Shown one piece after another: positions 24,468 to 44,645 of a stretch of DNA of 64,000 nucleotides. Location of the stretch: NCBI GenBank assembly GCA_020344415.1, contig CP070825.1, forward strand, positions 680,228-744,227, in the 5' to 3' direction. A program made the position numbers and the translations under genes. Below the pieces are notes generated by a model. That model was not told the DNA's origin, did no database searches, and worked only from the letters and a program-made list of their open reading frames with translations. Source of the DNA: Candidatus Aminicenantota bacterium. GTDB taxonomy: Bacteria > Acidobacteriota > Aminicenantia > Aminicenantales > Aminicenantaceae. Within the stretch, counting starts at the first letter, position 1. Each line of letters opens with the position of its first letter.

Positions 24468-24575
24468 GATTTGTACACTTTTCTGTCATTGCGAGGAATG
24501 AAGAAGATCGCCACGCTGTGCTCGCAACAGGCTGCGCAATCTCTCTTGTTGGCAAAGAAGTAGCCTGTCTCCTTA
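24445..24575. repeat. Composite C-B-C repeat element between converging genes
   Basis: The left family C end is at 24445-24467, a family B core (TCTGTCATTGCGAGGAATGA) at about 24482-24545, and the inverted right end AAGTAGCCTGTCTCCTTA at 24558-24575. The outer edges touch the stop codons of both flanking genes. Confidence 0.75.
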
Positions 24576-26151: not shown

Positions 26152-26161
26152 CCAACCAATT

Positions 26162-26276
26162 AGGGTCAGGTCTACACTTTTAACTTTTATTTTATAATAT
26201 AATAAATAGGTGCGTGTCTGTTTTCCTGTACCATGAGTCTGAATTGATAAAAAGTTAAAAGTGTAGACCTGACCCT
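26162..26276. repeat. Family F palindromic element F1 before the radical SAM gene
   Basis: The left arm AGGGTCAGGTCTACACTTTT (26162-26181) and its continuation match the right arm ending AAAAGTGTAGACCTGACCCT (26257-26276) exactly as reverse complement over 27 bp. The right end abuts the ATG of the next gene. Confidence 0.85.
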
Positions 26277-27814: not shown

Positions 27815-29878
27815 GTGAAAAAGAGATTTAGCCTCTTATCATTCTTCATATTGATAGCCCTTACTTTCATTTACATGAGCACTAACGCAAAAAATGCAGA
27901 ACTTTCAGAGCAGCACAAAAGGTGGCTGGAAGAAGAGGTAGTTTATATCATAGTTCCTGTCGAGAAAGAAGTTTTTTCGAAGCTCGAGACAGACCGCGAG
28001 AGAGATCTTTTCATTGAAGCTTTCTGGAAACATAGAGATCCTACCCCTGGGACTCCTGAGAATGAATTTAAAAATGAACATTATCGGCGCATAAATTATG
28101 TCAACCATTTTTTTGGCCGGGTATCACCAAAACCTGGCTGGAAAACTGACAGGGGAAGAATGTATATTATCCTTGGTGAGCCTAATGATATCCAGAGGTA
28201 TGAGGGAAAGACCATGACCTATCCTGCAGAAGTCTGGTTCTATCAGGGCAGGACAGAGCTTGGTCTTCCAGCTGGCTTTAACCTTGTTTTTTTCCAAGAC
28301 GGAGCCGTGGGAGATTACAGGCTTTACAGCCCTCTCAAGGATGGGCCTCAGGCTTTGATGACCTCTATTTGGACAGACCCAGTGGATTATCTAGGGGCCT
28401 ATGAACAGTTGAGAAAGATTGAACCTGATTTGGCTATGGTTTCTCTTACTCTTATCCCTGGAGAGAGCTCTGCTGCTTTTGGGCGCCCATCTCTAACTTC
28501 AGATATATTGATCCAGAGAATTGAGACAACCCCCTCTAGATCAGTGGAAGAGAGGTATGCCCAGAAATTTCTCGAATACAAAGATACTGTGGAAGTAGAA
28601 TACTCAGCTAATTACATGGCTAGCGATGCTTTGGTCAAGGTGATCAAAGATCCATCCGGGATATATTTTGTGCATTATGCCATTGAGCCAGAAAGACTTT
28701 CAGTGAATTTATACGAGAATAAATATTACACCAACTTGAAGCTCAACGGTTCGATCTCGAATCTGGAAGGGAAGACCATCTATCAATTTGAAAAAAACTT
28801 TTCAATCGACTTTGATGAAGAAAAGATTAAGACAATAAGCAGACAGCCTTTCAGTATGCAAGATATGTTTCCCCTCATACCAGGAAATTTCAAGATGTCT
28901 GTTCTTGTGAAAAACGAGATCTCTAAAGAGTTTACTTCTTTAGAACGAGACCTGCTTATCCCAGGAGATGAGGATGTTATGCAAATGACCTCAATCATTC
29001 TCGGCCACAAGATGAGCGAGAAAGCTGCAGACAAAAAACTCAGGCCTTTTCAAATAGGTGGTTATCGGATCTACTTTCACGCGAAAAGAGTTTTTCTCAA
29101 AGCAGATACGATGGTCTTGGCTTTCCAGATTCATGGCTTGAGCGAAGAAGCGAAAGAGAAAGGAGAGATAAGATTCACTTTTATGAAGGGCGGAGAAGGA
29201 TTCCACACTACAACAAAGAAACTCGCTGAATTCACAGAGCTGCCAGTAGTTTTAGAACAATTCTCTCTTAGCGAATTCACTCCAGCGCATTACAGGATTC
29301 AGGTTTCGCTTTTTGTTGATGGACAGGAGGTTCTTTTCGAGAGCGAAGAATTTGATGTGACTTATCTAGAAGCTATCGCTCGTCCCTGGACCTTTTCCAA
29401 ATTATTGCCAGACATAGGAGATTCAATCTATTCTTACATTCTTGGATCTCAGCTCTTCATGCAAGGGAAAATACCTGAGGCTCGAGCCAGTCTGGAGGAG
29501 GCGTTCCGGAAGAAGCCCGATTCCATTGATTTCGCTCTGAATCTGGCCCAGGTATATATGGTGCTTGGTGAATATAAAAAAATCGAAGCCATTTTAATTT
29601 CCTTCCTGAATATGCCCCAGCCGCCCAGGTATGACCTGTTTTATATAATGGGAAAGGCGTATCAGAATATGGGAGAATTAAATAGAGCAATCGAGGTTTT
29701 TGATAAAGCGATTTCTCACTATGGAATAAACATTCCTTTATTAAATGCCGTTGGCGAGTGCTATCTCCGATTGGGCAATCCCAAGGAAGCCTTGGCTGCC
29801 TGGGAAAAATCCCTGGAGATGAACCCGGATCAGCCCAAAATCAAGAAAAATATTGAAGCTCTGAAGGAGAAAAAATGA
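27815..29878 (+). CDS. GWxTD-domain protein with C-terminal TPR repeats
   Basis: A 687-residue protein started at GTG 27815 (AAAGGAG 8 bases upstream); the longer TTG start at 27791 is unsupported. A signal peptide or anchor (MKKRFSLLSFFILIALTFIY) precedes a GWxTD domain with VEKEVFSKLETDRERDLFIE, FWKHRDPTPGTPENEFKNEH and the name motif GWKTDRGRMYIILGEP. A middle beta-rich region follows, and the last 170 residues are TPRs (FDKAISHYGINIPLLNAVGE). GWxTD proteins are exported, of unknown function. It is first of a three-gene operon, with a 4-bp overlap to the next gene. Confidence 0.88.
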   Translation: MKKRFSLLSFFILIALTFIYMSTNAKNAELSEQHKRWLEEEVVYIIVPVEKEVFSKLETDRERDLFIEAFWKHRDPTPGTPENEFKNEHYRRINYVNHFFGRVSPKPGWKTDRGRMYIILGEPNDIQRYEGKTMTYPAEVWFYQGRTELGLPAGFNLVFFQDGAVGDYRLYSPLKDGPQALMTSIWTDPVDYLGAYEQLRKIEPDLAMVSLTLIPGESSAAFGRPSLTSDILIQRIETTPSRSVEERYAQKFLEYKDTVEVEYSANYMASDALVKVIKDPSGIYFVHYAIEPERLSVNLYENKYYTNLKLNGSISNLEGKTIYQFEKNFSIDFDEEKIKTISRQPFSMQDMFPLIPGNFKMSVLVKNEISKEFTSLERDLLIPGDEDVMQMTSIILGHKMSEKAADKKLRPFQIGGYRIYFHAKRVFLKADTMVLAFQIHGLSEEAKEKGEIRFTFMKGGEGFHTTTKKLAEFTELPVVLEQFSLSEFTPAHYRIQVSLFVDGQEVLFESEEFDVTYLEAIARPWTFSKLLPDIGDSIYSYILGSQLFMQGKIPEARASLEEAFRKKPDSIDFALNLAQVYMVLGEYKKIEAILISFLNMPQPPRYDLFYIMGKAYQNMGELNRAIEVFDKAISHYGINIPLLNAVGECYLRLGNPKEALAAWEKSLEMNPDQPKIKKNIEALKEKK

Positions 29879-30903
29879 ATCTTCTACCGAGTCCAAAAAA
29901 AAATGTGAAACTGATTTCTTTACTATTGGGCCCTTTGCTCTTTCTTAGCGCATGTTTTTTCCTGTTTTTCTTTTCTTCCTCTTGTCGCCTTTATAAATTA
30001 GAGCAACAGTTGGATTCAGTAAACGCTGAATTCTTATCCAAGGTAAGATTCATTATCACTAAAAAGGAAAGAAAGATTTTTCTTGAACTGCCTGATTCAG
30101 AGAAAGAAAAGTTCAAAGAAGAATTCTGGGAGCGTCGTGATCCCAATCCTGAAACTGAAGAGAATGAATTCAAGATGGAGTATTTCAGCCGGATTGAGCA
30201 ATCAGATGAACTTTTTTTGGGTGAAGGGAGACCAGGATGGTTAACTGATAGAGGGAGGATTTATATTCTCTTTGGTTCCCCCCAGTACAGAGAAACCCAC
30301 AGAATTGAAAGCAGCGATCCATCAAGCTTCCTTTATAGACGTTGTGGGGAGATCTGGCATTATGGTGGATTTCCTGTTGTTTTTGTTGATTCAACCTGTA
30401 CTGGGAGTAATTATCGGTTGGTCACCTATAACTTGACTGGTCTTCGGTCCATCAATCTGATGTATATGCATGAATTAAATAGAGCTCAAGATGAAGCCCA
30501 GAAAACCTTTGAAAAGGAAAAGGGATTTTTTGATTTCAACTTGCGCATAGAAAAAACCATTGTTGAGGTGGACAGGATTGAAGGTATAATTGTCTTAGAG
30601 ATTCCCTACGCTGTTATCTGGTATAAGGCTGAGGAAGATTGGCTGAAGACGACTATTGATGTTCTGATAGAGTTGAAGGATTTTGAAGGCAGACTCATAT
30701 GGGAATATAATATGCCTTTTGAGATTGGGATGAAAGAGGAGGAGCTGAAAGAGAGGCAAAACAAGAATCATAGGATCGAGATTCCCCTTATTCTGGAGAA
30801 GGGTTTAGGCAGACTCCGTCAGGGGAAAAGCCTGTTTCATATTTTCCTTAAAAACAGGACCGGAGGAGAAGAGCTGAAGAAAGTGATGGAGTTTAAGATA
30901 TAG
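29875..30903 (+). CDS. GWxTD-domain exported protein, TPR-less
   Basis: A 342-residue relative of the preceding gene with the same core: FIITKKERKIFLELPDSEKE, FWERRDPNPETEENEFKMEY and the name motif GWLTDRGRIYILFGSP. The N-terminus is a long hydrophobic segment with Leu-Ser-Ala-Cys (Cys27) and a second Cys37, so a lipoprotein anchor is likely though not certain. It lacks the TPR tail. The 4-bp overlap with the upstream gene and 9 bp to the next suggest coupled expression and a shared complex. Confidence 0.85.
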   Translation: MNLLPSPKKNVKLISLLLGPLLFLSACFFLFFFSSSCRLYKLEQQLDSVNAEFLSKVRFIITKKERKIFLELPDSEKEKFKEEFWERRDPNPETEENEFKMEYFSRIEQSDELFLGEGRPGWLTDRGRIYILFGSPQYRETHRIESSDPSSFLYRRCGEIWHYGGFPVVFVDSTCTGSNYRLVTYNLTGLRSINLMYMHELNRAQDEAQKTFEKEKGFFDFNLRIEKTIVEVDRIEGIIVLEIPYAVIWYKAEEDWLKTTIDVLIELKDFEGRLIWEYNMPFEIGMKEEELKERQNKNHRIEIPLILEKGLGRLRQGKSLFHIFLKNRTGGEELKKVMEFKI

Positions 30904-30912
30904 GAGGTTAAG

Positions 30913-31905
30913 ATGAGTCATAGATGGAATAATAAAATTTTGAACCTGGGTCTTTCTATTCTGCTAATTATTGTCTGGATTGTTCCCATAACCTTTGCCC
31001 AGGAACACATGGGAAAGGGAAGAGTTAATGGCATTGTTGTTGATGATAAAGGGCAGCCCCTTGAAGGTGCGTTAATTCTTTGCGAAAGCTTGAGGCATAA
31101 GACAAAACTCGAGGGTCATTCGGATAAGAAAGGGAATTTTGCCGTGCTTGGGTTGGGAACAGGTCCATGGAAAATCACAGCTTCTAAGCAGGGCTACGCG
31201 AGCTCTTCTGTAGATATGAATATTAGACAACTCAGGAGAAATCCCCCTGTCACATTTACACTTCAGAAAATGAAAGAGTCTCAGGCCCTTATGTCTGATG
31301 AGGAATCCTATCAGTTGTTTGACCAAGGGAATCTCCTCATAAAAGAGGAGAAATATGATGAAGCCTTGGCAGTTTTCGAGGAATTCCTGATAAAGTATCC
31401 TGAGATTTATCAAGTACATTTAAACATCGGAACTTGTTACCTGAAGAAAGGAGAAATGACGAAGGCTGAGGAGTCGTTTAAACTCGTCCTGGATAAAACA
31501 CTGGAAAATCACGGAGATTATAAAAATGACCCTCCGGCTAGCCTGCGCGCGTTTACTGGGCTTGGAGAAATATACCTTCGAAAAGAAGATTTTGAGACTT
31601 CCCAGAAATATTTCGCGCAAGCTTTGGAAATTTCTCCTGAGGATGAAGTGGCTGCCTACAATGTGGGAGAGGTTTTCTTTTCCAATCTGAGGATTGATGA
31701 AGCCATCAGGTACTTTGAGTTAGCTGTCCAGATTAAGAAGGATTGGCCCAAGCCGTACTTAAAGCTGGGCTATGCTTATTTGAATAAAGGCGATTACAAT
31801 AAAGCTCTTGAGTATTTCAATAAGTTCGTCGAGATAGACCCTGAAAGCCCACAAGTGCCTACCGTAAAAAACATCATCGCTACCATCGAAAAGATGAAAA
31901 AATAA
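30913..31905 (+). CDS. Carboxypeptidase-regulatory-like domain and TPR protein
   Basis: A 330-residue protein with a signal peptide (cleavage near Ala29-Gln30). Residues about 34-105 form a CarboxypepD_reg-like beta sandwich (GRVNGIVVDDKGQPLEGALI, KKGNFAVLGLGTGPWKITAS), followed by four or more TPRs (YQVHLNIGTCYLKKGEMTKA; PYLKLGYAYLNKGDYNKALE). It follows two GWxTD genes with a strong AGGAGG site and its stop converges on a TonB receptor gene 3 bp away. The same regulatory domain type opens both TonB receptors of this island. Confidence 0.85.
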   Translation: MSHRWNNKILNLGLSILLIIVWIVPITFAQEHMGKGRVNGIVVDDKGQPLEGALILCESLRHKTKLEGHSDKKGNFAVLGLGTGPWKITASKQGYASSSVDMNIRQLRRNPPVTFTLQKMKESQALMSDEESYQLFDQGNLLIKEEKYDEALAVFEEFLIKYPEIYQVHLNIGTCYLKKGEMTKAEESFKLVLDKTLENHGDYKNDPPASLRAFTGLGEIYLRKEDFETSQKYFAQALEISPEDEVAAYNVGEVFFSNLRIDEAIRYFELAVQIKKDWPKPYLKLGYAYLNKGDYNKALEYFNKFVEIDPESPQVPTVKNIIATIEKMKK

Positions 31906-31908
31906 TAA

Positions 31909-34900
31909 TTAGAAACTGAGGCAGAGGCTAAATCTGAACAGCCTAACTCCAGAAAGAGAAGTGGTTTTTGTGTAATTTGGGCTTAGAATACGAATGCCCT
32001 GAACAGTATTTTCATCTGCCGGAAACCAGTAGCCCCCGTCATTCTGAGCAATCGAGCGATATTTGTTCCCTAATGCATCAATAATGTCAATGTAAGCGGT
32101 TAACCTTCCAAAGTTTCCCAAACTTAATTCTTTTGTGATTCTAATGTCAAGGTTGTCATAGGATTTATTTCTTCTTGTCCCTGGTTCTTCAAGAAGAACA
32201 TTTGCATAACTCCTATAGACATTTTCTTCCAGTGCCCAGGAAGATGGAGGGATAATTGTGACTCTTCTTGCCCAAGGAATTCCACTCATGTGTGTGTAAT
32301 AGAAACTCAGGAAAAAATCGAAAGGAAATCTGTATGTACCCATTAACTTTATGAGAAGAGATCTATCAAAGTCCAACCTTGAGCCCTCTGGATAATTTTC
32401 GAAATAATTGGGGCTGTTTGCTGCGCTTGTGAAAACCGAACTAGCACCGTAACCTAATCCAATATTGCCTGTTGCCTTGCTTAAGACCATTGCACCGTAT
32501 AATTGCCAGTTATTTGACATTCGTTTTTTAATTTGAATTTCTAGTGCCTGGTAATTTCTTTTTAACTCAGGAACGTTTTTGATTCGATCGAAAAAAAGAG
32601 GGGCATTCTTAGACCAGTAATAAACAGTAACAGGAGTATCTGGATAATCGTCAACTCCCGGAATGACCGTATTAAAAGGAGTCCACCATCTTTCTGTATC
32701 CTGATCAATAGTGTACCAATCCTTCTCTAAGTCAGGCGCATAGCGAACATTTTCAATGATGTTTCTTTTGTATTTGTAAATATAATTTACTCTAATGGAT
32801 AAATCTGGGATCAACTCCTGATGAAGCCCGATTGTAAATTCGTCGGTATAAGAGGATTTTAAGTCTGGTGCTATCCTCTTTTCAATATATTCTGGGTCGT
32901 ACAAACGATAGTCTTCAGGATAAAGAGCGTAAGTATCAGAGTCATCTACTTCCCCGTCCATATTTTCATCATACCAATAAAACTGATGAGAACGGCTGAA
33001 ATAAAGGGGATTTAAAGCAGTTAGATATTGAAGCATCAGATAGTCTGAATAACGAGAAAAGGAAGTTTTAAAAATAGTTTTTCCCTTGCCAAAGATGTCG
33101 AAGATTAAGCCAAAACGCGGTGATAAGGAATTCCAAGCTATCAATCTTTTCTGCCCCTCGACTTCGTTTTGACCAAAAGGATTCACTCCATATGTTGGGC
33201 TGATCAATTCTTCGCCTAATTTATATGAAACAGCATTTCCGCTTTCTGTTTTGAAGATTGCCGGCTGATCAGCGGCGCTCCGGTCGAATCTGATGCCTAG
33301 ATTTAAAGTCAACCTTTCAGCGATTATAATGGAATCTTGAACAAAAAAGCCAAATCTTCTAACTTCACTTTTCTGAATTAATCCTCCCTTTTCTTTGCTG
33401 GCAAGGGTGAAATGAATTTTTCCTTTTCCAACTGTGTTGCCTGTAGAAGGAGATTCGTCCAGCCCGAAATAATAGGGGCTTCCAAAATAATAATCTATCA
33501 ATAGGTTGTTCTCTTTCCATGCTGACCATTCTCCATAAATATATTCGTACTCTCCGCCAGCTTTGAATTCGTGGTGTCCTCCCAGAAAGCTGTCCGCGTA
33601 GTGAGTTATAGATGCTTCAGTCTGAAATCTTTTTGTTAGCTGTGTTTCGTTGAACAGGGCACTTCCCCAGAGGTGACCTGTGCTTTCGTCGAAAAATTGT
33701 GGATTATTTTTTCCTTCTTCGTTAAGAAACAATGGGAGCCTATGATGCGTGTATCCTGTTTTCACATCAACAAAGGTGTTTTGATTCATAATGTAATTCA
33801 GCGCTCCATTCAGCAAATAATGTTTTCCGTGATCCAGGATACGAGTAGCCTCTTCTGTTAGATTCCAGTCAAGAGAGCTATTATAGATGGGTTGATAGGT
33901 GTTCGAATAATTAAACATCCCTGAAATTTTTAATTTGGGATCGAATTTACTCGTCAACTTGAAAAAGCCCATTTTTTCCTTGTTGCTCCAATCGAATTCT
34001 TCATGCTTGTTCCCTTGAGGATCTGTCCATGGAATGAAAGAAGTTGTTTGAGATTGTGAAATATAGCGGAGATTCCCGAAAAACCACATTTTATCAACTA
34101 AAAGAGAACCCCCCAAGGTTAATGAAAAATCCCACAATTTTGTATCCATGGGCGCGGGAGAGGCTTCCATTGCACTTAATTCTTCTTCAGTCCAAAAAGT
34201 GCTTGCAAAGTCATCACTTGTATGAAAGAGAGAGAGGTGCCCACTGAAATCATTTCCTCCTGACTTGGTAATAATATTGATGAATCCGCCGTCAATAGGA
34301 CCCAGTTCCGCTGGATGAGCTGCAGTTTCCAATTCAATTTCCTCCAGAATATCAAAATTGATGTTCGTAGATAGATGCATTCCCCGTGGGTCATTAATAT
34401 ATGTGGAATCAAGGGCATAGATGTTTGCCCTCGAGGTGGAACCGTGAATAATGGATGTTTGCTGATAGGGAATGCCTTCTGAAATGATCCCAGCTACAGA
34501 GTTGATAATATCGTGCAGGTCTCTATCGAGAGGGATATTTTTTAGAATGTCCTTTTCTATAATCACGGCAGTTTTTGCCGACTCTTGGTCTCCTGTTGGT
34601 GACGTAAGTTTGGTGGTTATCTCCTCTTCTATTGTAGTCTTCTCTAAAGTGATGTAGAGAGTGGTGGTCATTCCTACACTGACTATAATGTCCTCAATGT
34701 TGACTGTTTTAAATCCCGGCATTTCAGCCATGATTTTATATCGACCAGGCGGGAGGCTAAAGAATTTAATTCTGCCAGTGTCAGAGGTGATATAGGTCTG
34801 CATTCCCAATAGCGCTGGCGAAGAAAGATAAACAAAGGCTCCAGGCAAAGGAAATCCTTCTGTATCTGTAATTTTTGCTTTGATAGAGCCAGTTTGCCTT

Positions 34901-34974
34901 TGTGCAGTGGCCAGTGAGGCAAATATTATGGGTAAATATATAATCAAGAAAATCTTAATTGATTTTTTCTTCAC
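31909..34974 (-). CDS. TonB-dependent receptor with N-terminal carboxypeptidase-regulatory domain (Oar-like)
   Basis: A 1021-residue outer-membrane protein. A signal peptide precedes a CarboxypepD_reg-like domain (GSIKAKITDTEGFPLPGAFV), a plug with IPLDRDLHDIINSVAGIISE and GGFINIITKSGGNDFSGHLS, and a long beta-barrel ending in an outer-membrane signature (RLFRFSLCLSF, terminal Phe). It is paralogous to the receptor at 40-43 kb, sharing the AQRQTGSI opening, MGAxTYIT-type sandwich and plug order. It probably imports or binds a bulky ligand under TonB control. No TonB/ExbBD genes lie in the window. Confidence 0.92.
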   Translation of the reverse strand: MKKKSIKIFLIIYLPIIFASLATAQRQTGSIKAKITDTEGFPLPGAFVYLSSPALLGMQTYITSDTGRIKFFSLPPGRYKIMAEMPGFKTVNIEDIIVSVGMTTTLYITLEKTTIEEEITTKLTSPTGDQESAKTAVIIEKDILKNIPLDRDLHDIINSVAGIISEGIPYQQTSIIHGSTSRANIYALDSTYINDPRGMHLSTNINFDILEEIELETAAHPAELGPIDGGFINIITKSGGNDFSGHLSLFHTSDDFASTFWTEEELSAMEASPAPMDTKLWDFSLTLGGSLLVDKMWFFGNLRYISQSQTTSFIPWTDPQGNKHEEFDWSNKEKMGFFKLTSKFDPKLKISGMFNYSNTYQPIYNSSLDWNLTEEATRILDHGKHYLLNGALNYIMNQNTFVDVKTGYTHHRLPLFLNEEGKNNPQFFDESTGHLWGSALFNETQLTKRFQTEASITHYADSFLGGHHEFKAGGEYEYIYGEWSAWKENNLLIDYYFGSPYYFGLDESPSTGNTVGKGKIHFTLASKEKGGLIQKSEVRRFGFFVQDSIIIAERLTLNLGIRFDRSAADQPAIFKTESGNAVSYKLGEELISPTYGVNPFGQNEVEGQKRLIAWNSLSPRFGLIFDIFGKGKTIFKTSFSRYSDYLMLQYLTALNPLYFSRSHQFYWYDENMDGEVDDSDTYALYPEDYRLYDPEYIEKRIAPDLKSSYTDEFTIGLHQELIPDLSIRVNYIYKYKRNIIENVRYAPDLEKDWYTIDQDTERWWTPFNTVIPGVDDYPDTPVTVYYWSKNAPLFFDRIKNVPELKRNYQALEIQIKKRMSNNWQLYGAMVLSKATGNIGLGYGASSVFTSAANSPNYFENYPEGSRLDFDRSLLIKLMGTYRFPFDFFLSFYYTHMSGIPWARRVTIIPPSSWALEENVYRSYANVLLEEPGTRRNKSYDNLDIRITKELSLGNFGRLTAYIDIIDALGNKYRSIAQNDGGYWFPADENTVQGIRILSPNYTKTTSLSGVRLFRFSLCLSF

Positions 34975-35313
34975 CTAATTCCTCCTTCACTTTTGCTTTT
35001 CCTTAGAATGTGGCTTTTGTCAATTTTCTCCCTTGCGCTGAAAAGCCTACTTTTTCGAGGAAAGAATAATTCTTCATGCGTTTTTATTTTGGCATGGGAT
35101 TTTAACATCTTTGCGTAATGAATTGATAATATTAACAATTATACGTGTTTTTTTCAATTATTTTTTGAGATGTACCACTCATTTTTAATCTCAATTCAGA
35201 TGCTTTTTAGCCAATTTATAGGAAACCAAATATTTTTTGCTTTTCGTCTTCTTCGCAAACTCTGGAATGATCCAGTCAACGGGCGGCATTTCCACCTTTC
35301 ATTTTTTTCTCCA
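34975..35313. other. Intergenic region upstream of the TonB receptor
   Basis: About 340 bases without a supported gene. It contains a 20-bp near-palindrome (listed separately) and AT-rich promoter-like sequence reading toward the receptor. No repeat family is seen. Confidence 0.5.
35121..35140. promoter_or_regulatory. Near-perfect 20-bp palindrome upstream of a TonB receptor
   Basis: AATTGATAAT meets ATTAACAATT with one mismatch pair. It is about 150 bp upstream of the receptor start and could be a regulator site for that gene or the aminotransferase end region. Confidence 0.45.
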
Positions 35314-36582
35314 TTACGCGAAGCTTGCCGTGGCTTTGAGAAACAGCTCTATCTCTGCCGGCGTATTATAATGGCACGCTGACAATCTAATAAAGCTTTG
35401 TATGCCAAGCTGTTTCAACATAGCCGCAAAAAACGGATCTTGTCCAGGGGCATGGAGTCTGATTTGCTCATCCTTGTAAAGTCCGCATCCTTTAGCTGAT
35501 TCGATCCCTTCTAAGTTAAATCCAACAAGACACGCGCGCCTTGATAGATCCTCTCCCATCCCATAGACAGTAACATGTTTCATATCCTTGAAGCCGTTAA
35601 TTTTATCTGTACCGTTGATTAGCGCAGACAAAAGACCTGTCGAATGTGCCTTTATACTCTGCATGGCAGCCACAACCAGTGCGCGCCGATCTGCAGAATC
35701 TGTGAAATGACCACCCAGCCAGCACAGATAGTCTACAACGGCAGACCAGGCCGCATAAGATTGATGCTCTACACCGCCCAGATCCCAACTCGTTTCAGGT
35801 TTAAAAATGTATTTCCAATGCGGAAGCCTTGCTAATCTATCTGAAACATGAGCATATCCACACCCCTTGACGCCATAGTTTTTGTAAGGGGCAATGACAT
35901 AGGCATCGGCTCCTATCTCTTCAACGTCAATCAGATCAGATGGCGAGTACTGGACACCATCGACCATGATATACAAATCAGGCTTTATCTTCCTTGCTTC
36001 TTTGATAATTGTTTTGACGTCAAATGTTTCACCGGTAACATTAGAAGTGTGTATGACAGCGAGAAAACAGGTGTCCTTGTCAATTTTTTCGAAAATTGAA
36101 TCTAGCGAGACAGAGCCTGTTTCTCGGTTGGGTTCGGCGATACGCTCTTCTTTCCCGTATTTCTCGGCAAATAAGGTTACTGCACTCCGGACTGAAGCGT
36201 GGTCTAGTCCAGTTGTCACAACGTTTGTTCCTGGGACGGCAGAGAGAACAGCGTTTGTAATGCGATATATCACGTGGCTGCTGCTCCAGCCGGGTATGGT
36301 TTGCCCAGATTTCGCTCCGAAAAAGGTCATGAGGTCTTCAATCCCTTGTGCGGTAGCCTCGACTGAGTGATTGGATCCAGGATTCGCTCTTCCCTGTTGA
36401 TCTGGCAGGCATGTCTCTTTTCCCATCGCTTCGATCACTGATTTTGGTCTTAGCGCGCCTGAAGCAGCTTCAAGGTAAATACGTTTTCCGGAATAGGGAT
36501 CCCAATCCACATATACAAACCTGCTCCTAATCTCTTCCATTAACTTGCGTGGATACAACCCTTTTTCATAATCGTTAGCCAC
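35314..36582 (-). CDS. PLP-dependent aminotransferase class V family protein
   Basis: A 422-residue fold-type I PLP enzyme of the cysteine desulfurase/kynureninase-like class V group. The N-terminal YLEAASGALRPKSVIEAMG, TTGLDHASVRSAV for phosphate contact, HTSNVTGE, the PLP-stacking Asp in MVDGVQYSPSDLIDVEEIGA, and the Schiff-base Lys234 in APYKNYGVKGCGY are visible. Reaction unknown; a lyase or desulfurase is as likely as a transaminase. It is not obviously in an operon; its neighbours are GWxTD and receptor genes. Confidence 0.85.
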   Translation of the reverse strand: MANDYEKGLYPRKLMEEIRSRFVYVDWDPYSGKRIYLEAASGALRPKSVIEAMGKETCLPDQQGRANPGSNHSVEATAQGIEDLMTFFGAKSGQTIPGWSSSHVIYRITNAVLSAVPGTNVVTTGLDHASVRSAVTLFAEKYGKEERIAEPNRETGSVSLDSIFEKIDKDTCFLAVIHTSNVTGETFDVKTIIKEARKIKPDLYIMVDGVQYSPSDLIDVEEIGADAYVIAPYKNYGVKGCGYAHVSDRLARLPHWKYIFKPETSWDLGGVEHQSYAAWSAVVDYLCWLGGHFTDSADRRALVVAAMQSIKAHSTGLLSALINGTDKINGFKDMKHVTVYGMGEDLSRRACLVGFNLEGIESAKGCGLYKDEQIRLHAPGQDPFFAAMLKQLGIQSFIRLSACHYNTPAEIELFLKATASFA

Positions 36583-36760
36583 TGTTCAACCTCCTTCAGA
36601 GTTGAGCTAATGTTCCTTATTTTAGCTTTATAAAAGAGAATATTCTAGGTTCTGAGGATTTAAATGATTGTTTTATTATTTCTATTTGTCTCCTTCAAGA
36701 TGACTAGCAGAGGAAAAAAAGGAGAAAGGGAACTCAATTATATTGCAGTGGGTTATTCTA

Positions 36761-37825
36761 TTATTTTATCTTTATTATTTCTAGCTTGCGCAGCCTTTTT
36801 TGCAGGATATTATCGCGGAGAGAAAAGTAGATCTCGTTTGTACCCTTTTCTAAAGGAATCATTATCATTTCAGTCAGAGAGAGGCCTTCTTTGATATTTT
36901 TTTTGAGCTTTTCGGCTGAGAGCCGTTCCTTTATCTCTTTTTTCTCTCCGTAGGTGCTTTTTAGCTCAAAATATTTTACTTCTAGGCTCAGTTCTAAATC
37001 ATAGGCATAAATGCCGTTTTCTTTCTTATAGCTTATGGCTCCGAATGGAATTTCAAAGATACAGTTAACCGAATAATTTTCTTCTTCACTTTTTTCGATT
37101 TTTCCAAATGATTTCTCATAATCTAGGAAAGGAAGAATTTTAGTCAGAGATTCGTCCTTCTCGATTTCCCCAATCCATTGATACTTGACCATATTGGGAT
37201 CGCTCTGGATATAACTCATCATGGAAAAGGGTTTAACTTCTACATTTGTGGTTAATTTGTAATCTCCGGTGCTTTCATAGTCGACAAAGACAAGTATCAA
37301 TGGACCCGAAAAATAATCGGGATATTGATTGTAGACCCAGATTTCTGTGGGTCTTTCGGTCCTGGTGCCCTCTTCAAGCAGGTCAGAACTGAGCTCCCTT
37401 AATCCTTTTTTTAGTTCGACTGTATGTTCACCCATACTTTTTTTAATAACATCTGTGGGCGGCCCCAAAAGGATAAAGATTCGTCCTCTATCTGTCATCC
37501 AACCTGGGATTCCCGCCCGAAAGGCTTTATCCGCTAGGGCAAGCCTCGAGTAGTACTGGCTTCGGAATTCGTTTTCTGCGGTCTCCGGAGTTGGGTCCCT
37601 CCTTTTCCAGAAATCCGCTATGAATTCAGCCCTGTCCTCGAGCGGTATTTCACGAAAAATCCTCTCTTCCTGAGGTGTGACGATATAGCGGATGACGTCC
37701 AGAAATTTTTGACTCTGAGGATCTAAGGAAGGCTTCACGATTTTATAAGAAGCACAGAATAGATGAAAATAGAGAGGTATGATCAAGAAAAAAAGATAAA
37801 AGATATTCTTCCTTCTTTTTTTCAT
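36761..37825 (-). CDS. GWxTD-domain exported protein (third paralogue)
   Basis: A 354-residue protein started at ATG 37825 (MKKRRKNIFYLFFLIIPLYF hydrophobic leader, Cys24 in a non-canonical lipobox). The domain reads IRYIVTPQEERIFREIPLED, FWKRRDPTPETAENEFRSQY and GWMTDRGRIFILLGPP, very like the two paralogues on the plus strand. The upstream 65 residues of the longer open frame look like repeat and promoter sequence. It is TPR-less. It lies between the sulfatase and aminotransferase genes. Confidence 0.85.
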   Translation of the reverse strand: MKKRRKNIFYLFFLIIPLYFHLFCASYKIVKPSLDPQSQKFLDVIRYIVTPQEERIFREIPLEDRAEFIADFWKRRDPTPETAENEFRSQYYSRLALADKAFRAGIPGWMTDRGRIFILLGPPTDVIKKSMGEHTVELKKGLRELSSDLLEEGTRTERPTEIWVYNQYPDYFSGPLILVFVDYESTGDYKLTTNVEVKPFSMMSYIQSDPNMVKYQWIGEIEKDESLTKILPFLDYEKSFGKIEKSEEENYSVNCIFEIPFGAISYKKENGIYAYDLELSLEVKYFELKSTYGEKKEIKERLSAEKLKKNIKEGLSLTEMIMIPLEKGTNEIYFSLRDNILQKRLRKLEIIKIK

Positions 37826-38076
37826 TTTTTTTCTCGGTCCAAAAGCATCATACTTATATGTCATTACGAGAAGCCCAGAAGATTCCTCGTCCGTCTCGGA
37901 ACTGGATGAGAAATTTATCCTTTTATTGTTATTGTGCACAAACGAATGGAATATATCAATATTCGATACAAAATTGTCATGGCGCCAAATTCGAAAGCTT
38001 GCATAAGGTTTTTCTCTCATTGAGGAGGCTCTTTATGAATTATGCTAGAATCGCATCAAAGTTGGCCATCCTCGGA
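37826..38076. other. Gap between the GWxTD gene and the sulfatase gene
   Basis: About 250 bases. A family B-like fragment (TGTCATTACGAGAAGCCCAG) begins at 37858. TATAAG near 37857-37852 on the minus strand may be a -10 box for the GWxTD gene. No gene is supported. Confidence 0.4.
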
Positions 38077-40209
38077 TCATTTCTGGCACTGTTCAATGAG
38101 GGCGTCTAATTTCTCTCTTTCTGCGGGAGCCATGAGATTGTAGTATCGTTTCTTATACTCACTGAGCAGATCAAACGCTTTGGTTTTATTGCCAGTGTTT
38201 AAATAGGCTATGGCTAGATCGAAATGAGCCTGGCTGAAATCGGGATTTGCTTCCAGGGCTTTTTCCCAGCAGTAGATAGCCCCTCCCAGGTCTCCTTGTT
38301 GTCTGTAGGCGTGGCCTAATCCATAGTATGGAGCTGGGTATTCAGGATCTAGTTCTATGGCTTTTTTGTAGTATTCGAAGCATCTAGAATAGACGAAGGA
38401 ATCTCTTGATTGCAGGCCGTGGGAATAGCAGGCATTGGCAAGGTTGTTGTAGAGCTCAGGATGCTTATTATCCAGGGAAAGACCCATCTCGAAAGATTTG
38501 ATCGCCTTGTCAAAATTGCCTTTCTTGGCATACGCAGTCCCGAGGTTATCCCATATTTCCGGATCATACTCAGTTTCCCTCATGTTCATTTTTTCGAAAG
38601 AGCCGATGACTTTGTCATACTGTTGAGCAGAAATGAGCCCTTTCATGTATTCGATGAATATTTCGTAGCTTGAGGGAAGAGCATCGAGCCCTTGCTCCAG
38701 GACTGCAAGAGCGTCCTCTTTATTTCCCATCTCTTGATAGATGGAAGCAAGACGTTTATACGCCAAATCGATATCCTTTCTTTCTTCTATGATTTCCTTC
38801 AAAAGCTTGATTCCCGCGTCCTGTTTTCCCTCTTTATACAGGTTCCAGCCTTCATCAATTTTATTTATATAAGGAACGAGAACTTTCACATCATCTTTGA
38901 CACTAAAGTCCTTCTTTTTCGAAACTCGAACGCTCGAGACATAGCCTAAGCTTGCTAGTTTTTCGCGAGTTTTCCGGTCGACCTTTTGAGCAGCGTCAAT
39001 TTTCTCAGATGGTGTCAGGGCAGCGATGATTTCTTTGAGCTGCGATGTAAATTGAGCTGTTTTTTTTCTTTCGGCAAGGTTGTTGAGCTCATCAAAATCA
39101 TGGTTCAGGTCATAGAGCTCAGGAATAGGAGAGTCGACAAATTTTTTCTTTTGGAGCATAAATCCCTTCAGAGGAGCCCATCCGCGGCTGTAGTAGGGAT
39201 ACAAAGATTCGAAGTAGATTGGCCTTTCAGGCAGTTTTTTCCCCTTTAAGGCTGGGAGGAGAGAGATTCCCTGGAGAAAAGGTGGCATATTGATTCCAAG
39301 CACATCACAGACTGTCGGGAATATGTCCACGTGACTGACATAGTCATCGATACGACCCGAGGCTTTTTCAGGAAGTGAGATGATGAGAGGGATCCAGATG
39401 GATGAATTATAGGCGAAAAAACCGTGAGTCTCCTCACCGTGCTGGCCTAATGACTCGCCGTGGTCCCCGGTGAAAATAATGAGAGTCGAATCGAACAGTT
39501 TGTTCTCTTTCATATGATCGAAGAGCTTTCCCATGACCCAATCGACGTAGGCAACTTCCCCCTCGTACAGATGATCTCTATATTGAGATTTAAAAGGCTC
39601 GGGAGGATCGTACGGGGTATGCGGATCCCAGCAATGGACCCAGAGAAACCAGGGAGATATTCGACCTTTCAGCCAATCAAGGGCGGCCTCGATCACAGCT
39701 TCAGCGTTTCTCTCTAACGAGGAGAGATTTACTGAGTGAACGCGGCTGTATTTATCATCGTAGAGGTCGAAGCCCTGGGATAGTCCAAACCTCGAATCGA
39801 GCGGGTAGGCTCCCACGAAGGCTCCGGTTGAATAGCCATTATTCCTGAGGTGCTCGGCTAGGGTTAACAACTCTTCGCTTACGATGAAATTTAAATTTTC
39901 ATGAACTCCATGATGGTTTGGCGTTGTCCCTAAGAGCATATTCGCATGAGATGGCAGTGTAGTAGATGTGTTGGCAAAAGCTCTAGAAAAAAGCATGCTT
40001 CTCTCTGCAAGATTATCAATATTCGGAGTTTTAGGGTATTGGCTACCATAACAGCTCAACCTGTCAGCTCTGAGTGTGTCTATGGTGATAAGAAGAAAAT
40101 TTTGTTTTGTTTCTTCTTTCTTTAGGGAATACATGGAGAGTGGAGCAAACATAATCCCGAGAAGAATAAACATCAGGAGAGACCAGGTATGAATACGATT
40201 TCTTTTCAT
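38077..40209 (-). CDS. Sulfatase-superfamily enzyme fused to TPR repeats, Thr nucleophile position
   Basis: A 710-residue protein started at ATG 40209 with a hydrophobic signal or anchor (HTWSLLMFILLGIMFAPLSM). Metal motif NFLLITIDTLRADRLSCYGS and the later GDHGESLGQHGEETHGFFAY are classical for alkaline-phosphatase/sulfatase superfamily members. The nucleophile motif aligns at TLPSH (Thr84 to His88), so Thr replaces the Cys or Ser needed for formylglycine. That favours a phosphodiesterase or phosphotransferase type activity. The C-terminal half is six to seven TPRs (AIKSFEMGLSLDNKHPELYN). It is adjacent to a TonB receptor and a GWxTD gene. Confidence 0.88.
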   Translation of the reverse strand: MKRNRIHTWSLLMFILLGIMFAPLSMYSLKKEETKQNFLLITIDTLRADRLSCYGSQYPKTPNIDNLAERSMLFSRAFANTSTTLPSHANMLLGTTPNHHGVHENLNFIVSEELLTLAEHLRNNGYSTGAFVGAYPLDSRFGLSQGFDLYDDKYSRVHSVNLSSLERNAEAVIEAALDWLKGRISPWFLWVHCWDPHTPYDPPEPFKSQYRDHLYEGEVAYVDWVMGKLFDHMKENKLFDSTLIIFTGDHGESLGQHGEETHGFFAYNSSIWIPLIISLPEKASGRIDDYVSHVDIFPTVCDVLGINMPPFLQGISLLPALKGKKLPERPIYFESLYPYYSRGWAPLKGFMLQKKKFVDSPIPELYDLNHDFDELNNLAERKKTAQFTSQLKEIIAALTPSEKIDAAQKVDRKTREKLASLGYVSSVRVSKKKDFSVKDDVKVLVPYINKIDEGWNLYKEGKQDAGIKLLKEIIEERKDIDLAYKRLASIYQEMGNKEDALAVLEQGLDALPSSYEIFIEYMKGLISAQQYDKVIGSFEKMNMRETEYDPEIWDNLGTAYAKKGNFDKAIKSFEMGLSLDNKHPELYNNLANACYSHGLQSRDSFVYSRCFEYYKKAIELDPEYPAPYYGLGHAYRQQGDLGGAIYCWEKALEANPDFSQAHFDLAIAYLNTGNKTKAFDLLSEYKKRYYNLMAPAEREKLDALIEQCQK

Positions 40210-40344
40210 GACTCTTCTTTCTTTAGAAACCCTAGACGAGAAAAAAACTAGATTTTGAAATTTCACATTTCTGTATATGATTCTAAACGAAAAAGATGTT
40301 TTTTTCTTCACATAAAGTAGCTAGAGAAATTCCCTAAAATTCCA

Positions 40345-40380
40345 AAGAAAAAAGAGGGAGGGATGATTCCCTCCCTCTTA
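40345..40380 (-). terminator. Intrinsic terminator of the second TonB receptor gene
   Basis: A perfect 12-bp stem, AAGAGGGAGGGA (40352-40363) against TCCCTCCCTCTT (40368-40379), with loop TGAT. On the minus strand it is followed by a T-rich tract, 34 bases after the receptor stop codon. Confidence 0.85.
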
Positions 40381-40413
40381 GCGTGTCGAACTAAGCAGTG
40401 TGTTCGACTCTAA

Positions 40414-43400
40414 CTAGAACGTGAACCTTGCTCCAAAACGGAAGGAGCGGACACCGTAAGCGCTTGTTATGTCTCCGTAGTCTGAGTCTAATTCGATTTC
40501 CGGTGGATCTCTGTAAGGCCAGATATATGGGTTAGGATTCTGTTCGATGTTGAGACCGCTTCTTCCCCCTATATTGAAGGCATCAATGTAGAGGCTCAGC
40601 TTGCCGAACTCACCAAAAGTGAAGGATTTCTCCACTCTCATATCCATCATGGTGTAGGAAGGATTTCTTCGAGTTCCACGCGTCTCGGGAGCGACATCAT
40701 CATAAGTGTCTTGGGTATCAATACTTGAGGGGAAATAAACACGCGAAATCGTTCTCCTCCAGGCTGACCCTGAGCGGTGCTGGAAGTAGGCGGTAAAGAC
40801 GATGTCGTAGGGGAGCATGACAGTTCCCATGATCTTGATCTGGAGTGGGCGATCATAAGCCACCCGACCGTAGGAATTTATCATCACGTTGGGGTTGTCG
40901 AACAGACTTGACTCGCCTTCTGTCTCTGAGTATGCGGGGCTGGCATTGCCTTTGAAGGCAGAATACAGGATCGAGCCCTTAAGCTGCCACCTGTTTGACA
41001 TCCTCTTGTCGAAAGTCAGCACAAGAGCGGTGTATTCCCTCTTGGCTTCTGGAGGATTCGCACCTTCGTAAGCCCGCGTAGGCGCGTAATCAGCCAGGCC
41101 ATAAATAGTCATATTCTGGTCATCTGCTGTTCCCCATTCTCCATCCCAGCCAGGGTCGATAAAATCATACGGGAGCCAGATGGGCCGTCCTTGGTCATCG
41201 ACAGCAGTGGGATCATAGCCGTTGAACTTATCCACGTCCTCGACGATGTTCTTGTTCACCTTGTAGATGAACTGGAGCCCCAGTTTAAAGTCCTTGACCA
41301 GCTCGTGCTCGATGCCCCCCATGAATTCATGCATGTAAGGAGCCTTCAAGTCTTCGGGATAGTATTGAAAATCCGGGTCTTGAATGTCATAACTGGTCAA
41401 TCTGTACTGATCTCCATCTGCGTCAAGGTACTGAGGCTGAACAGGTGAACCGTATCGTCCATCGGGTACAGGAAGGTCCATGTAGCCATTTCTGTTCAGG
41501 TCGTACCAGTACCAGTTCAGGGCTCCGCCGCTCATTATGTTGGCGGCGTTGTACTTGGCGGACCAGATGGGCTCATAGTAGCGGCTGAAAGAGGCCTTTA
41601 GAGCTGTCTTTCCGTCACCGAAGAGGTCGTAGACGATACCGATTCTCGGCGAAAGAGTTGTGAACTCAACGATTTTTTTGTAAGGGGTAGTCATGGCATC
41701 AAAAGCAGACGTCTGGTTGAACTCTATGTCGGGATCGTTGTGATACTGGTCGTTCAGAGCATGGAGGAGTATAGTGGGAGTTGCGGCCAGAGCAGGGTTC
41801 AGGAATTCGGGTCCGATATCATACAGGTCGATCATATCGGGCCGTGTTTGCTCGGGTTCGTACTGGTAGCCGTAATCGAGACGAATTCCGACATTGATCG
41901 CCAGCTTCCCAAAGACAATGCTGTCCTGGGCAAAGCCAGAGAAACGGCGGGTGTTGTCATACGACGCCATGACGCCCTTTTCGGCATGGGCGCGGATTCT
42001 GAGCCGGCCTCGCCTACCTGAGGTTGAGTAGTAATACTTGTTGCCAGCGTTGTAATCTCTCCAGTACGTGTAGTAAGGATTTCCGTCCTTGTACCTGTCA
42101 AGGCCGTAAATAGTGTGCTCGTATTCACCGCCAATCTTAAATTCGTGGCTTGCTCCCAGAAGGTCGTCTGCGAAGTGGGTCAACGAAACCGAAGCGAGGG
42201 CTTTTTTACGGATATAGTCGTCACCATAATAGGAGTTCCCCCATCTAACCTGATGCTTCCGGTCGTAGACAAAATAGTTGTCAGCGTATTCTGGCCTCAG
42301 AAGGATGGGAAAATGACGGTATACATACGTCCCGCGAATATCAGCAAATGTATTTTGGTTCAGGACCCAGTTTAACTGGTGGGTCGTGGTGTGAGTGTTC
42401 TCATGGTCCCAGACGATTGTGCACGCAAAAGTGTAGGTATTACTAGTTCTGTTCGAGTAAACAGGTTCATAAATATTGTTCCAATGATACATGCCCATGT
42501 ACCGGATGTTTTTGGCGAGCTGGAAGGTCATTTTGGCAAATCCCATCCACTCCTCATGTTCGATGTCAAAATGCTGAAGCTCTGCTGGAGTGAATGTCCA
42601 TTCCCTCAAGTTGATTTTTGCTAACCGAATATCAAAAGTTTGAGGATTGGCTTCCTCCCAGATAAGGCGACGGCCGTTGAGGAAGAACCATAACTTGTCT
42701 TGAATGATGGGACCGCCAAAGCTTAGGGAACCGTCTTTGTAATCTGCATATCTTCGGGGAGGATTGACTCCAACCGCCTCAAGATCTTCTGCGGAAAGCA
42801 GATCTTGGGCTAAGGAGTTTGCGGTATAATAGGCTGTAACGCTTCCTGTAAACTTGTTTCCACCGCTCTTGGTAACGATGTTGACAACCACTGAATCTGT
42901 CTGTCCCATTTCAGCAGGAAGCGCTCCGATCCCGAATTCAATCTCTTCGTAGACATCGGTGTTGATGTTGGCCATGGAATAGAAGGTGGCGGGATCGTTC
43001 ATGGGGACACCGTCCAGCTGGTAGAGCTGACTCCGGACTGTTCCTCCTAAAATAGAAGAGGTTCTTCGGTATTGATTCCCACTCGATATAGCACCCGGGA
43101 TAGAATTCTGGATACCGTAAAGGTCTCGGTTCATCGGGATAGTTGCCAGGAATTCTGCGCTGTAGTTGACACTAGTTTTTGAAGTCTCGACATCTACAAC
43201 CGGCGATTCGGCGGTAACAGTGACCTCCTCTTCTATAGTGGCCACCGCTAATGTAATTGTTACTTCGGTAGTCTTTCCCACGCTGATGATCAGGCCTCTT
43301 CTGATTGTGGTTTTAAATCCGAGCATTTCGACTTTGACTTCGCATCCTCCAGGGCTGAGGGCTGGAAAACGAAACCTACCTGTCTCGCCGGTTATATAAG

Positions 43401-43581
43401 TCTTAGCGCCCATAACAGACGGTCCAGTTAGTGTAACAGTAGCACCGGGAAGCGGATTGCCTTCCTCATCGATAACTTTGCCGCTAATGGAACCGGTCTG
43501 TCTTCCTTGTGCGAGCGTGATGGAAGCGAGTCCGAGAGCAAGGAGCATAATCAAGGAAAGTTTGAAGAATTTTTTACTCAT
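40414..43581 (-). CDS. TonB-dependent receptor with N-terminal carboxypeptidase-regulatory domain (Oar-like)
   Basis: A 1055-residue outer-membrane receptor. Signal peptide, CarboxypepD_reg-like sandwich (GSISGKVIDEEGNPLPGATV; GETGRFRFPALSPGG), plug (IPMNRDLYGIQNSIPGAISS; DSVVVNIVTKSGGNKFTGSV) and barrel ending SFRFGARFTF are visible in order. It is a paralogue of the receptor at 31.9-35.0 kb. The gene follows a GntR-type regulator on the same strand and ends in a strong terminator, so it may be a separate regulated unit. Ligand unknown. Confidence 0.93.
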   Translation of the reverse strand: MSKKFFKLSLIMLLALGLASITLAQGRQTGSISGKVIDEEGNPLPGATVTLTGPSVMGAKTYITGETGRFRFPALSPGGCEVKVEMLGFKTTIRRGLIISVGKTTEVTITLAVATIEEEVTVTAESPVVDVETSKTSVNYSAEFLATIPMNRDLYGIQNSIPGAISSGNQYRRTSSILGGTVRSQLYQLDGVPMNDPATFYSMANINTDVYEEIEFGIGALPAEMGQTDSVVVNIVTKSGGNKFTGSVTAYYTANSLAQDLLSAEDLEAVGVNPPRRYADYKDGSLSFGGPIIQDKLWFFLNGRRLIWEEANPQTFDIRLAKINLREWTFTPAELQHFDIEHEEWMGFAKMTFQLAKNIRYMGMYHWNNIYEPVYSNRTSNTYTFACTIVWDHENTHTTTHQLNWVLNQNTFADIRGTYVYRHFPILLRPEYADNYFVYDRKHQVRWGNSYYGDDYIRKKALASVSLTHFADDLLGASHEFKIGGEYEHTIYGLDRYKDGNPYYTYWRDYNAGNKYYYSTSGRRGRLRIRAHAEKGVMASYDNTRRFSGFAQDSIVFGKLAINVGIRLDYGYQYEPEQTRPDMIDLYDIGPEFLNPALAATPTILLHALNDQYHNDPDIEFNQTSAFDAMTTPYKKIVEFTTLSPRIGIVYDLFGDGKTALKASFSRYYEPIWSAKYNAANIMSGGALNWYWYDLNRNGYMDLPVPDGRYGSPVQPQYLDADGDQYRLTSYDIQDPDFQYYPEDLKAPYMHEFMGGIEHELVKDFKLGLQFIYKVNKNIVEDVDKFNGYDPTAVDDQGRPIWLPYDFIDPGWDGEWGTADDQNMTIYGLADYAPTRAYEGANPPEAKREYTALVLTFDKRMSNRWQLKGSILYSAFKGNASPAYSETEGESSLFDNPNVMINSYGRVAYDRPLQIKIMGTVMLPYDIVFTAYFQHRSGSAWRRTISRVYFPSSIDTQDTYDDVAPETRGTRRNPSYTMMDMRVEKSFTFGEFGKLSLYIDAFNIGGRSGLNIEQNPNPYIWPYRDPPEIELDSDYGDITSAYGVRSFRFGARFTF

Positions 43582-43695: not shown

Positions 43696-44400
43696 TTATT
43701 GGTTACTTAGGTATTCACTCAATTCCTCTTTGAGAGAGGGTGATTTCAGGAGTAATCCCCAGTGTCTCAACGTCAAAGTTTTAAGCCGCTTTTTATCTTT
43801 AGCCTTTAATGCTTTAAGCAATTCTTTGTGTTCATTGAGTGACCTTTCCAGAACCCCTGGTTTTCTGAAGGCATACATACGGACATACTTGTATCTGAGC
43901 ATTTGGTCGTTAACCTGTTTGATTGTTTCCATAAGAAATTTATTGGGTAAAGAATCCCATATCTTATTATGTATTTCCTGGTTGAGATCTATGTATTTTT
44001 CTAAGGAGGTTATTCGGCAGTTCCGTTCCATTTCCTTTGTTAAATCCTCAATGTTTACTAGATCTTTGGATTTGATGTTTTCTGCAGCTATGCCTGTGGC
44101 TATACTATCTAGAGCACCAAGAACCACAAAGATTTCTTTCAGCTCATCGTGAGATATTTCCTTTACTACAGCTTCTTTGTGGAAATTGATTGTGACGAAT
44201 CCTTCAGCTCCTAACTTCCGAACAGCCTCTCTCACTGGAGTGGTGCTGATTCCAAATGTGGCGGCGATTTCTTTTTCGTTTATCCTTTGGTTGGCTTTGA
44301 GTTTGTTATTAATGATGGACTCCTTAAGGTAGTTGTAGATGGATTGGCTGAGGGTCTTAGGAAATCCGTGCTTGTAAGAGGAGCTTCTTTTATCGTGCAT
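43696..44400 (-). CDS. GntR family (FadR/FCD subfamily) transcriptional regulator
   Basis: A 234-residue regulator started at ATG 44400 (MHDKRSSSYKHG). The winged-helix domain has NQRINEKEIAATFGISTTPV and REAVRKLGAEGFV, and the C-terminal helical FCD domain has DLNQEIHNKIWDSLPNKFLM and ERSLNEHKELLKALKAKDKK. FCD regulators bind small carboxylates or sugar acids. The gene is upstream of a TonB receptor and downstream of a ROK kinase on the same strand, which suggests catabolic control of an uptake gene. Palindromes at 44419-44439 are candidate self-operators. Confidence 0.92.
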   Translation of the reverse strand: MHDKRSSSYKHGFPKTLSQSIYNYLKESIINNKLKANQRINEKEIAATFGISTTPVREAVRKLGAEGFVTINFHKEAVVKEISHDELKEIFVVLGALDSIATGIAAENIKSKDLVNIEDLTKEMERNCRITSLEKYIDLNQEIHNKIWDSLPNKFLMETIKQVNDQMLRYKYVRMYAFRKPGVLERSLNEHKELLKALKAKDKKRLKTLTLRHWGLLLKSPSLKEELSEYLSNQ

Positions 44401-44418
44401 AAATATTATTATACTGAA

Positions 44419-44439
44419 TACATTATATTTTATAATATA
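44419..44439. promoter_or_regulatory. AT-rich inverted repeat, candidate GntR operator
   Basis: TACATTATA (44419-44427) and TATAATATA (44431-44439) are reverse complements with one mismatch around TTT. The site is about 20 bp upstream of the GntR start codon. Confidence 0.5.
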
Positions 44440-44534
44440 CATTATATGCAAATAATATGCCAATGTAAGGGATTTTTAATTTGTTTATTTTCAATAAGAT
44501 AGGTTTTCGGGCGATTTCTTTTTTTGAAATAAAA

Positions 44535-44568
44535 TTCAATTATTTGAATTTCAATTCAAAATTTTGAA
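44535..44568. promoter_or_regulatory. Tandem overlapping TTCAA/TTGAA palindromes
   Basis: TTCAATTATTTGAA (44535-44548) and TTCAAAATTTTGAA (44555-44568, perfect) start 20 bp apart, about two helical turns. A third palindrome, TTGAATTTCAATTCAA (44544-44559), bridges them. The arrangement resembles cooperative repressor sites between the ROK and GntR genes. Confidence 0.5.
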
Positions 44569-44577
44569 TATTCCATT

Positions 44578-44607
44578 GGGGTCAGGCTTTCATAAGTTTC
44601 ATAACTT
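44578..44607. repeat. Half family D element D2
   Basis: Only the left arm GGGGTCAGGCTTTCATAAGT and its continuation is intact. The opposite side (ATTATGAGAAACTC, 44627-44640) is a worn right arm that stops just before the ROK stop codon. Confidence 0.65.
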
Positions 44608-44645
44608 GAATTATTTTACTCAAACAATTATGAGAAACTCGGCGT

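Follow-up and report, generated by a model that had tools for sequence, protein, structure and literature searches.

GWxTD proteins, Oar-like transporters and a TPR-linked enzyme as parts of a putative recurrent outer-membrane module of the class Aminicenantia

Does the crowding of envelope-protein genes at one place in an Aminicenantes chromosome reflect a common machine, or a neighbourhood in which such genes accumulate? The question is raised by a 64,000-nucleotide stretch of DNA (the window; contig CP070825.1, positions 680,228 to 744,227) from a Candidatus Aminicenantes genome that consists of a single contig of 4.43 Mb; all close named relatives of the locus also belong to Candidatus Aminicenantes. 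Between positions 27815 and 43581, the window encodes three proteins of the GWxTD family (a long one with a TPR region, GWxTD-long, a short one, GWxTD-short, and a third), two Oar-like TonB-dependent outer-membrane proteins, a protein that combines CarboxypepD_reg and TPR domains (CpReg-TPR), and a sulfatase-fold enzyme with a C-terminal TPR region. A sequence-only reading of the window had proposed that they form a common, undescribed envelope system, and had named conserved co-localisation in related genomes as the check on which the proposal would stand or fall. With some reservation, the cluster is probably one copy of a recurrent outer-membrane module of the class Aminicenantia, organized around an Oar-like TonB-dependent transporter. 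As delineated by comparison of loci, the module comprises the Oar-like transporter, CpReg-TPR, one or more GWxTD lipoproteins, a GWxTD-TPR protein and a TPR-linked enzyme with a Thr nucleophile, in varying subsets. It is a real and repeated envelope module, apparently an undescribed one, the function of which we infer.

Recurrence was analyzed around the GWxTD genes of the source genome and of five further genomes of its order (40 neighbourhoods in six genomes). Open reading frames were called in each neighbourhood and searched with iterated profiles, and all of them were clustered. The only families found in more than four of the 40 neighbourhoods are GWxTD (40), Oar-like proteins (23), CpReg-TPR (14) and the sulfatase fold (13); the next best family reaches four. 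As a control, 36 random regions of 20 kb from two complete-contig genomes were subjected to the same scan as the 17 GWxTD loci of these genomes. Oar-like genes are present at 11 of the 17 loci versus 1 of the 36 random regions (Fisher p = 2e-6), CpReg-TPR at 7 versus none (p = 1e-4), and the TPR-linked enzyme at 6 versus none (p = 5e-4). A second control, independent of the profiles, used Pfam positions over whole genomes with the GWxTD set rotated. In the source genome, a GWxTD gene is at most 10 kb away from 10 of the 19 Oar-like genes (p = 0.0015) and from 6 of the 8 TPR-linked enzymes (p = 0.0022), and genome G024 deviates in the same direction (p = 0.025 and 0.0038, respectively). Chance is excluded as the cause of the clustering by these whole-genome controls, and the co-localisation on which the earlier proposal depended is present far above the level of random regions. 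The source genome contains about ten copies of the module, with subsets that vary. Some module operons also hold secreted peptidases (M28, C69, S9, met-zincin) or aminotransferases. These co-operonic peptidases had suggested a peptide-utilisation or import locus, a candidate that was dropped because M28 peptidases are equally frequent beside modules and in random regions (3/86 in each).

A genome-wide search for CpReg-TPR in the six genomes returned 28 nearly full-length homologues, of which 20 have a GWxTD gene no more than 10 kb away, where 1.25 would be expected. The remaining eight all adjoin an Oar-like gene, a TPR-linked enzyme or both, one of them (L144) together with a GWxTD remnant; CpReg-TPR, Oar and the enzyme therefore also co-occur in the absence of GWxTD. 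We further compared the pairwise identities of GWxTD-long with those of its nearest partners, which were shuffled within genomes to obtain the null distribution. Divergence of GWxTD-long is correlated strongly with that of GWxTD-short (r = 0.88, p = 0.0025), less so with that of CpReg-TPR (r = 0.50, p = 0.0075), and weakly with that of Oar (r = 0.27, p = 0.035). By this measure, GWxTD-long, GWxTD-short and CpReg-TPR diverge as a unit, with a weaker link to Oar and with the enzyme as an exchangeable associate.

Across the class, at least one partner is found within 10 kb at 36 of 47 GWxTD loci. The association extends to other families of Aminicenantia, in which L085 encodes GWxTD-long, GWxTD-short, a VWFA-Ig protein, two enzymes, CpReg-TPR and Oar, and L086 encodes CpReg-TPR, Oar, an enzyme and GWxTD-long. 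A tree built from 32 GWxTD-long proteins implies many gains or losses of the partners (11 changes for Oar and 12 for CpReg-TPR), which speaks against a single ancestral block that has remained frozen. In another family of the class, a single gene run (L084:8337-16529) contains four GWxTD genes together with CpReg-TPR and further TPR genes.

The three GWxTD proteins of the window, recognized earlier by their GWKTD, GWLTD and GWMTD motifs, score 106–120 bits against TIGR04514, the curated cut-off of which is 28. GWxTD-long (27815–29878, plus strand; 7.8e-35) carries a signal peptide with no lipobox, the GWxTD domain, two Ig-like beta domains and a C-terminal region with TPR matches. GWxTD-short (29875–30903, plus strand; 1.2e-30) consists of the GWxTD domain and one Ig-like domain, and its lipobox Cys is kept in orthologues. 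The third protein (36761–38020, minus strand; 8.8e-35) is a lipoprotein with a true start that is probably near 37825; its orthologues on the minus strand of L051 (15196–16260) and L052 (15626–16678) keep the N-terminal Cys. A total of 18 GWxTD domains are spread over about eleven sites of the source genome. In nearly all short copies the signal peptide ends with a Cys, which the long copies do not have; the short proteins are therefore predicted to be lipoproteins and the long ones soluble periplasmic proteins. AF2 models of GWxTD-long and GWxTD-short, built on alignments of 13–14 rows that did not draw on the whole-genome search, are confident for the Ig-like (model residues ~240–505) and TPR (509–662) parts of the former and for the C-terminal Ig-like domain (model residues 186–304) of the latter. 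Matches found with Foldseek and VIA-align are limited to the TPR and Ig-like parts, and a sequence search of solved structures yielded no GWxTD relative. The family (TIGR04514 / PF20094) occurs in 87 genomes of a sample of 119 Acidobacteriota and is without a described function; a literature search restricted to open-licence papers found none that names GWxTD.

The Ig-like region of GWxTD-long also occurs in other contexts. At three loci (L040:11837-14038, L061:10618-12729 and L085:11731-13911) an acidobact_VWFA protein (TIGR03436), the C-terminal part of which matches this region, adjoins GWxTD; the open-licence literature search returned no paper on the 'VWFA-related Acidobacterial domain'. 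Stand-alone exported Ig-like proteins that match the same region and have no GWxTD domain are located near modules at L060:14808-15872, L062:12604-13695, L083:6393-7460, L087:11985-12857 and L088:10767-11663.

The two TonB receptors that had been considered paralogues are indeed related, with an identity of 35%. Both Oar1 (40414–43581, minus strand) and Oar2 (31909–34974, minus strand) match the outer-membrane beta-barrel family PF25183 (5e-31 and 8.2e-34), and Oar2 also matches PF00593 (1.7e-6). Each carries an N-terminal CarboxypepD_reg extension (PF13620; 4.5e-19 in Oar1, 5.9e-13 in Oar2). The plug domain PF07715 gives a weak match in Oar1 (3e-3) and none in Oar2, and a TonB-box-like stretch, EEVTVTAESP, was spotted by eye in Oar1. 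A sequence search of solved structures found no relative of Oar1. At L042:14449-15315 an Oar-like fragment of 288 residues, probably a decayed transporter, adjoins GWxTD-long, the enzyme and CpReg-TPR.

The enzyme (38077–40311, minus strand) had been called a TPR-sulfatase. The fold and the TPR region hold (PF00884, 3.2e-46, alkaline-phosphatase superfamily); the label is not supported. Instead of the formylglycine sulfatase (S1) motif C/S-x-P-S/A-R, the protein displays TLPSH, accompanied by the metal motifs DTLRAD, DPHTPY and GDHGE, a combination that places it by sequence in the Thr-nucleophile group. Every TPR-linked enzyme near modules has T[LF]P[SA]H, i.e., a Thr nucleophile, whereas at L056 and L095 the sulfatase-fold neighbours without TPR have retained Cys. 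Because Thr replaces the formylglycine Cys of sulfatases, the TPR-linked enzyme is probably a phosphodiesterase or phosphotransferase, even though its nearest solved enzymes are mostly sulfatases. Thr nucleophiles are also those of YejM, EptA, MCR-1 and LtaS, the targets of which are phospho-groups on envelope molecules (PMC7576196).

All genes of the earlier list were found at their stated positions, with family matches above the curated cut-offs. The genes are arranged on both strands, as noted before, with three on the plus strand and five on the minus strand once an aminotransferase is added to the earlier list. Judged from their junctions, the plus-strand genes (27815–31905) are one predicted operon: an ATGA overlap joins the two GWxTD genes, and the gene for the exported CpReg-TPR protein (30913–31905; PF13620 3.4e-11 with TPR, as the earlier reading had it) starts 9 bp after GWxTD-short with an AGGAGG site. 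The GTG start at 27815 is preceded by an AAAGGAG site. The aminotransferase (35314–36582, minus strand; class V, cysteine desulfurase-like; PF00266 3.1e-31; TIGR01976 9e-45, under its cut-off) is probably not part of the module, since it is found at only 1 of the 40 loci. Syntenic orthologous loci are present in other Aminicenantes (L051 and L052); the order in L051 is GWxTD-long, GWxTD-short, TPR and CpReg-TPR, with a GWxTD gene and two Oar-like genes on the opposite strand. Upstream of the cluster, positions 20236–27605 encode HlyD, an AcrB-type RND pump, a baeRF family-10 protein, tRNA-Leu (26064–26151) and a B12-binding radical SAM protein. In L064 and L073 the GWxTD genes are flanked by homologues of these genes; in L051 and L052 the genes at the GWxTD flanks match them in size and order. 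Directly past Oar1, an FCD-type GntR regulator and a ROK kinase follow (43696–45560); in L073 a ROK protein adjoins an Oar-like gene.

How might such parts work together? Most likely they make up a TonB-energised module of the outer membrane that has a periplasmic scaffold and an enzyme of its own. On this main reading the Oar-like barrel, powered by TonB, would carry cargo through the outer membrane. Lipid-anchored in that membrane, the short GWxTD protein would pair with the soluble GWxTD-TPR protein via the GWxTD/Ig domains, and the TPR and CpReg domains would form a periplasmic scaffold at the N-terminal CpReg extension of the barrel. Recruited to this scaffold, the TPR-linked enzyme would act on the cargo, or on an envelope lipid or glycan, by cleaving or transferring a phosphoester group, and different copies of the module may serve different cargoes. 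A bolder version, a serious possibility rather than an expectation, is an undescribed TonB-energised machine: GWxTD lipoproteins, GWxTD-TPR and CpReg-TPR proteins would jointly build the periplasmic scaffold and so couple an Oar-like barrel to a phosphoester-modifying enzyme, with about ten copies in each Aminicenantes genome, diversified by cargo.

Several points weigh against a module of this kind. At 11 of the 47 GWxTD loci of the class no partner lies within 10 kb, among them L039, which holds a close paralogue of the GWxTD-long of the window. GWxTD loci served as the training set of the iterated neighbourhood profiles, which biases the profiles in favour of such loci, fetched regions overlap in two cases (L046/L047 and L059/L060), and duplicated modules are not independent observations. 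The link of the enzyme to the module may be looser, because its divergence does not track that of GWxTD-long (r = 0.05, p = 0.73, with one non-TPR enzyme among the ten pairs). The GWxTD domain itself is modeled at low confidence by AF2 in both proteins and, as the structural matches cover only TPR and Ig-like parts, no fold is claimed for it. The GWxTD-long gene at L039:7553-9622 is solitary, as are those of L068, L071 and L078; these genes, close to that of the window (68–69% identical in the same genome), are not accompanied by Oar, CpReg-TPR or the enzyme.

Regarding the direction of transport, SusCD-like import and export of the Oar/PopC type are about equally likely. As a full account, nutrient import is somewhat unlikely; it would make the Oar-like protein the counterpart of SusC, with the GWxTD lipoprotein and TPR proteins presenting substrate as SusD does and the enzyme trimming it. 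The N-terminal architecture of SusC is the same as that of Oar (PMC6434023), SusD is a TPR-bearing lid (PMC11351036), and the six genomes, despite their Oar-like transporters, gave no match in a search for SusD/RagB (PF07980) that was positive in a Bacteroides control. The co-operonic peptidases and aminotransferases mentioned above are consistent with import as well, but degradative enzymes are not recurrent, with M28 at its background frequency, and the TPR-bearing partner GWxTD-long, unlike SusD, is not a lipoprotein.

Export or surface assembly, in which the barrel would release periplasmic proteins or glycoconjugates, GWxTD and TPR proteins would act as periplasmic chaperones and the enzyme would add or remove a phospho-group, is doubtful to the same degree. 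Myxococcus Oar is needed for secretion of PopC (PMC6434023), and the Thr-nucleophile relatives of the enzyme modify envelope lipids (PMC7576196). Export is also favoured by the gene context outside the class, where GWxTD in Acidobacteriota genomes mostly takes the form of one or a few proteins of 540–620 residues. Single or tandem GWxTD genes directly adjoin tatC in six Acidobacteriota loci (L101:7335-12341, L102:7991-11251, L103:7743-11188, L163, L164 and L166), and an LptF/LptG-type permease gene lies directly beside GWxTD in L099:9400-13555 and L156 (two genomes of one genus), both being raw counts. In several tatC loci a tatA-like gene precedes tatC and GWxTD, an order that suggests a tatA-tatC-GWxTD operon in these Acidobacteriota. 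However, the tatC loci belong to another lineage with GWxTD of a different form in one or two copies per genome, and no cargo gene recurs in the 40 neighbourhoods. In several families outside the class a CpReg-bearing barrel gene adjoins GWxTD (L097, L098, L160, L162, L173 and L174), again as raw counts.

It is improbable that there is no machine at all and that expanded envelope families simply pile up where the genome is permissive and are duplicated block by block. Every family is indeed multi-copy, and the many partner changes on the GWxTD-long tree would fit such a process. Yet GWxTD has no further neighbour family with such recurrence, random regions contain TPR proteins and M28 peptidases at least as often as the surroundings of modules do, and CpReg-TPR genes that lack a GWxTD neighbour still adjoin Oar or the enzyme. 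The same partners have been regained repeatedly in different lineages, which speaks for function. That the enzyme is a true sulfatase in a sulfated-glycan utilisation locus is very hard to maintain, for although the PF00884 match and the closest solved enzymes point that way, glycoside hydrolases are rare beside modules and the Thr in place of Cys/Ser in all TPR-linked copies near modules, with Cys kept in non-TPR neighbours, led to the rejection of such a locus.

The proposed module is a variant of TonB-dependent outer-membrane systems, one that lacks the SusD of SusCD loci and the nucleophile of sulfatases. Of the earlier proposal, the co-localisation is retained, at the level of the genome as well as of the class, with three of the families co-diverging; the surface location and direct interaction stay conjectural, and the misleading 'sulfatase' annotation is replaced. 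The Thr-nucleophile envelope enzymes YejM, EptA, MCR-1 and LtaS resemble the TPR-linked enzyme in superfamily (by Pfam/NCBIfam), nucleophile and exported catalytic domain, but the latter differs in its C-terminal TPR fusion and its sulfatase-looking metal motifs (DTLRAD, DPHxPY, DHGE), and its sequence is nearer to sulfatases than to EptA or YejM. All three GWxTD proteins belong to a known family that is multi-copy here, and that gains fixed partners and a testable setting in outer-membrane transport. The Oar protein of Myxococcus xanthus shares the CarboxypepD_reg and plug/barrel architecture and a possible export direction, whereas the accessible text of PMC6434023 describes no GWxTD or CpReg-TPR partner for it, and no cargo gene is seen at the Aminicenantes loci. 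SusC/SusD loci of Bacteroidota likewise combine a TonB-dependent transporter with a CarboxypepD_reg extension, a dedicated lipoprotein and TPR-bearing partners in many copies per genome; by contrast, the module has GWxTD and Ig-like domains in place of SusD/RagB, includes a recurrent Thr-nucleophile enzyme and has no recurrent glycan-degrading enzymes. If the reading is true, Aminicenantia would possess a system of their own that corresponds to those of the SusCD or Oar type, with cargo predictions that are open to test.

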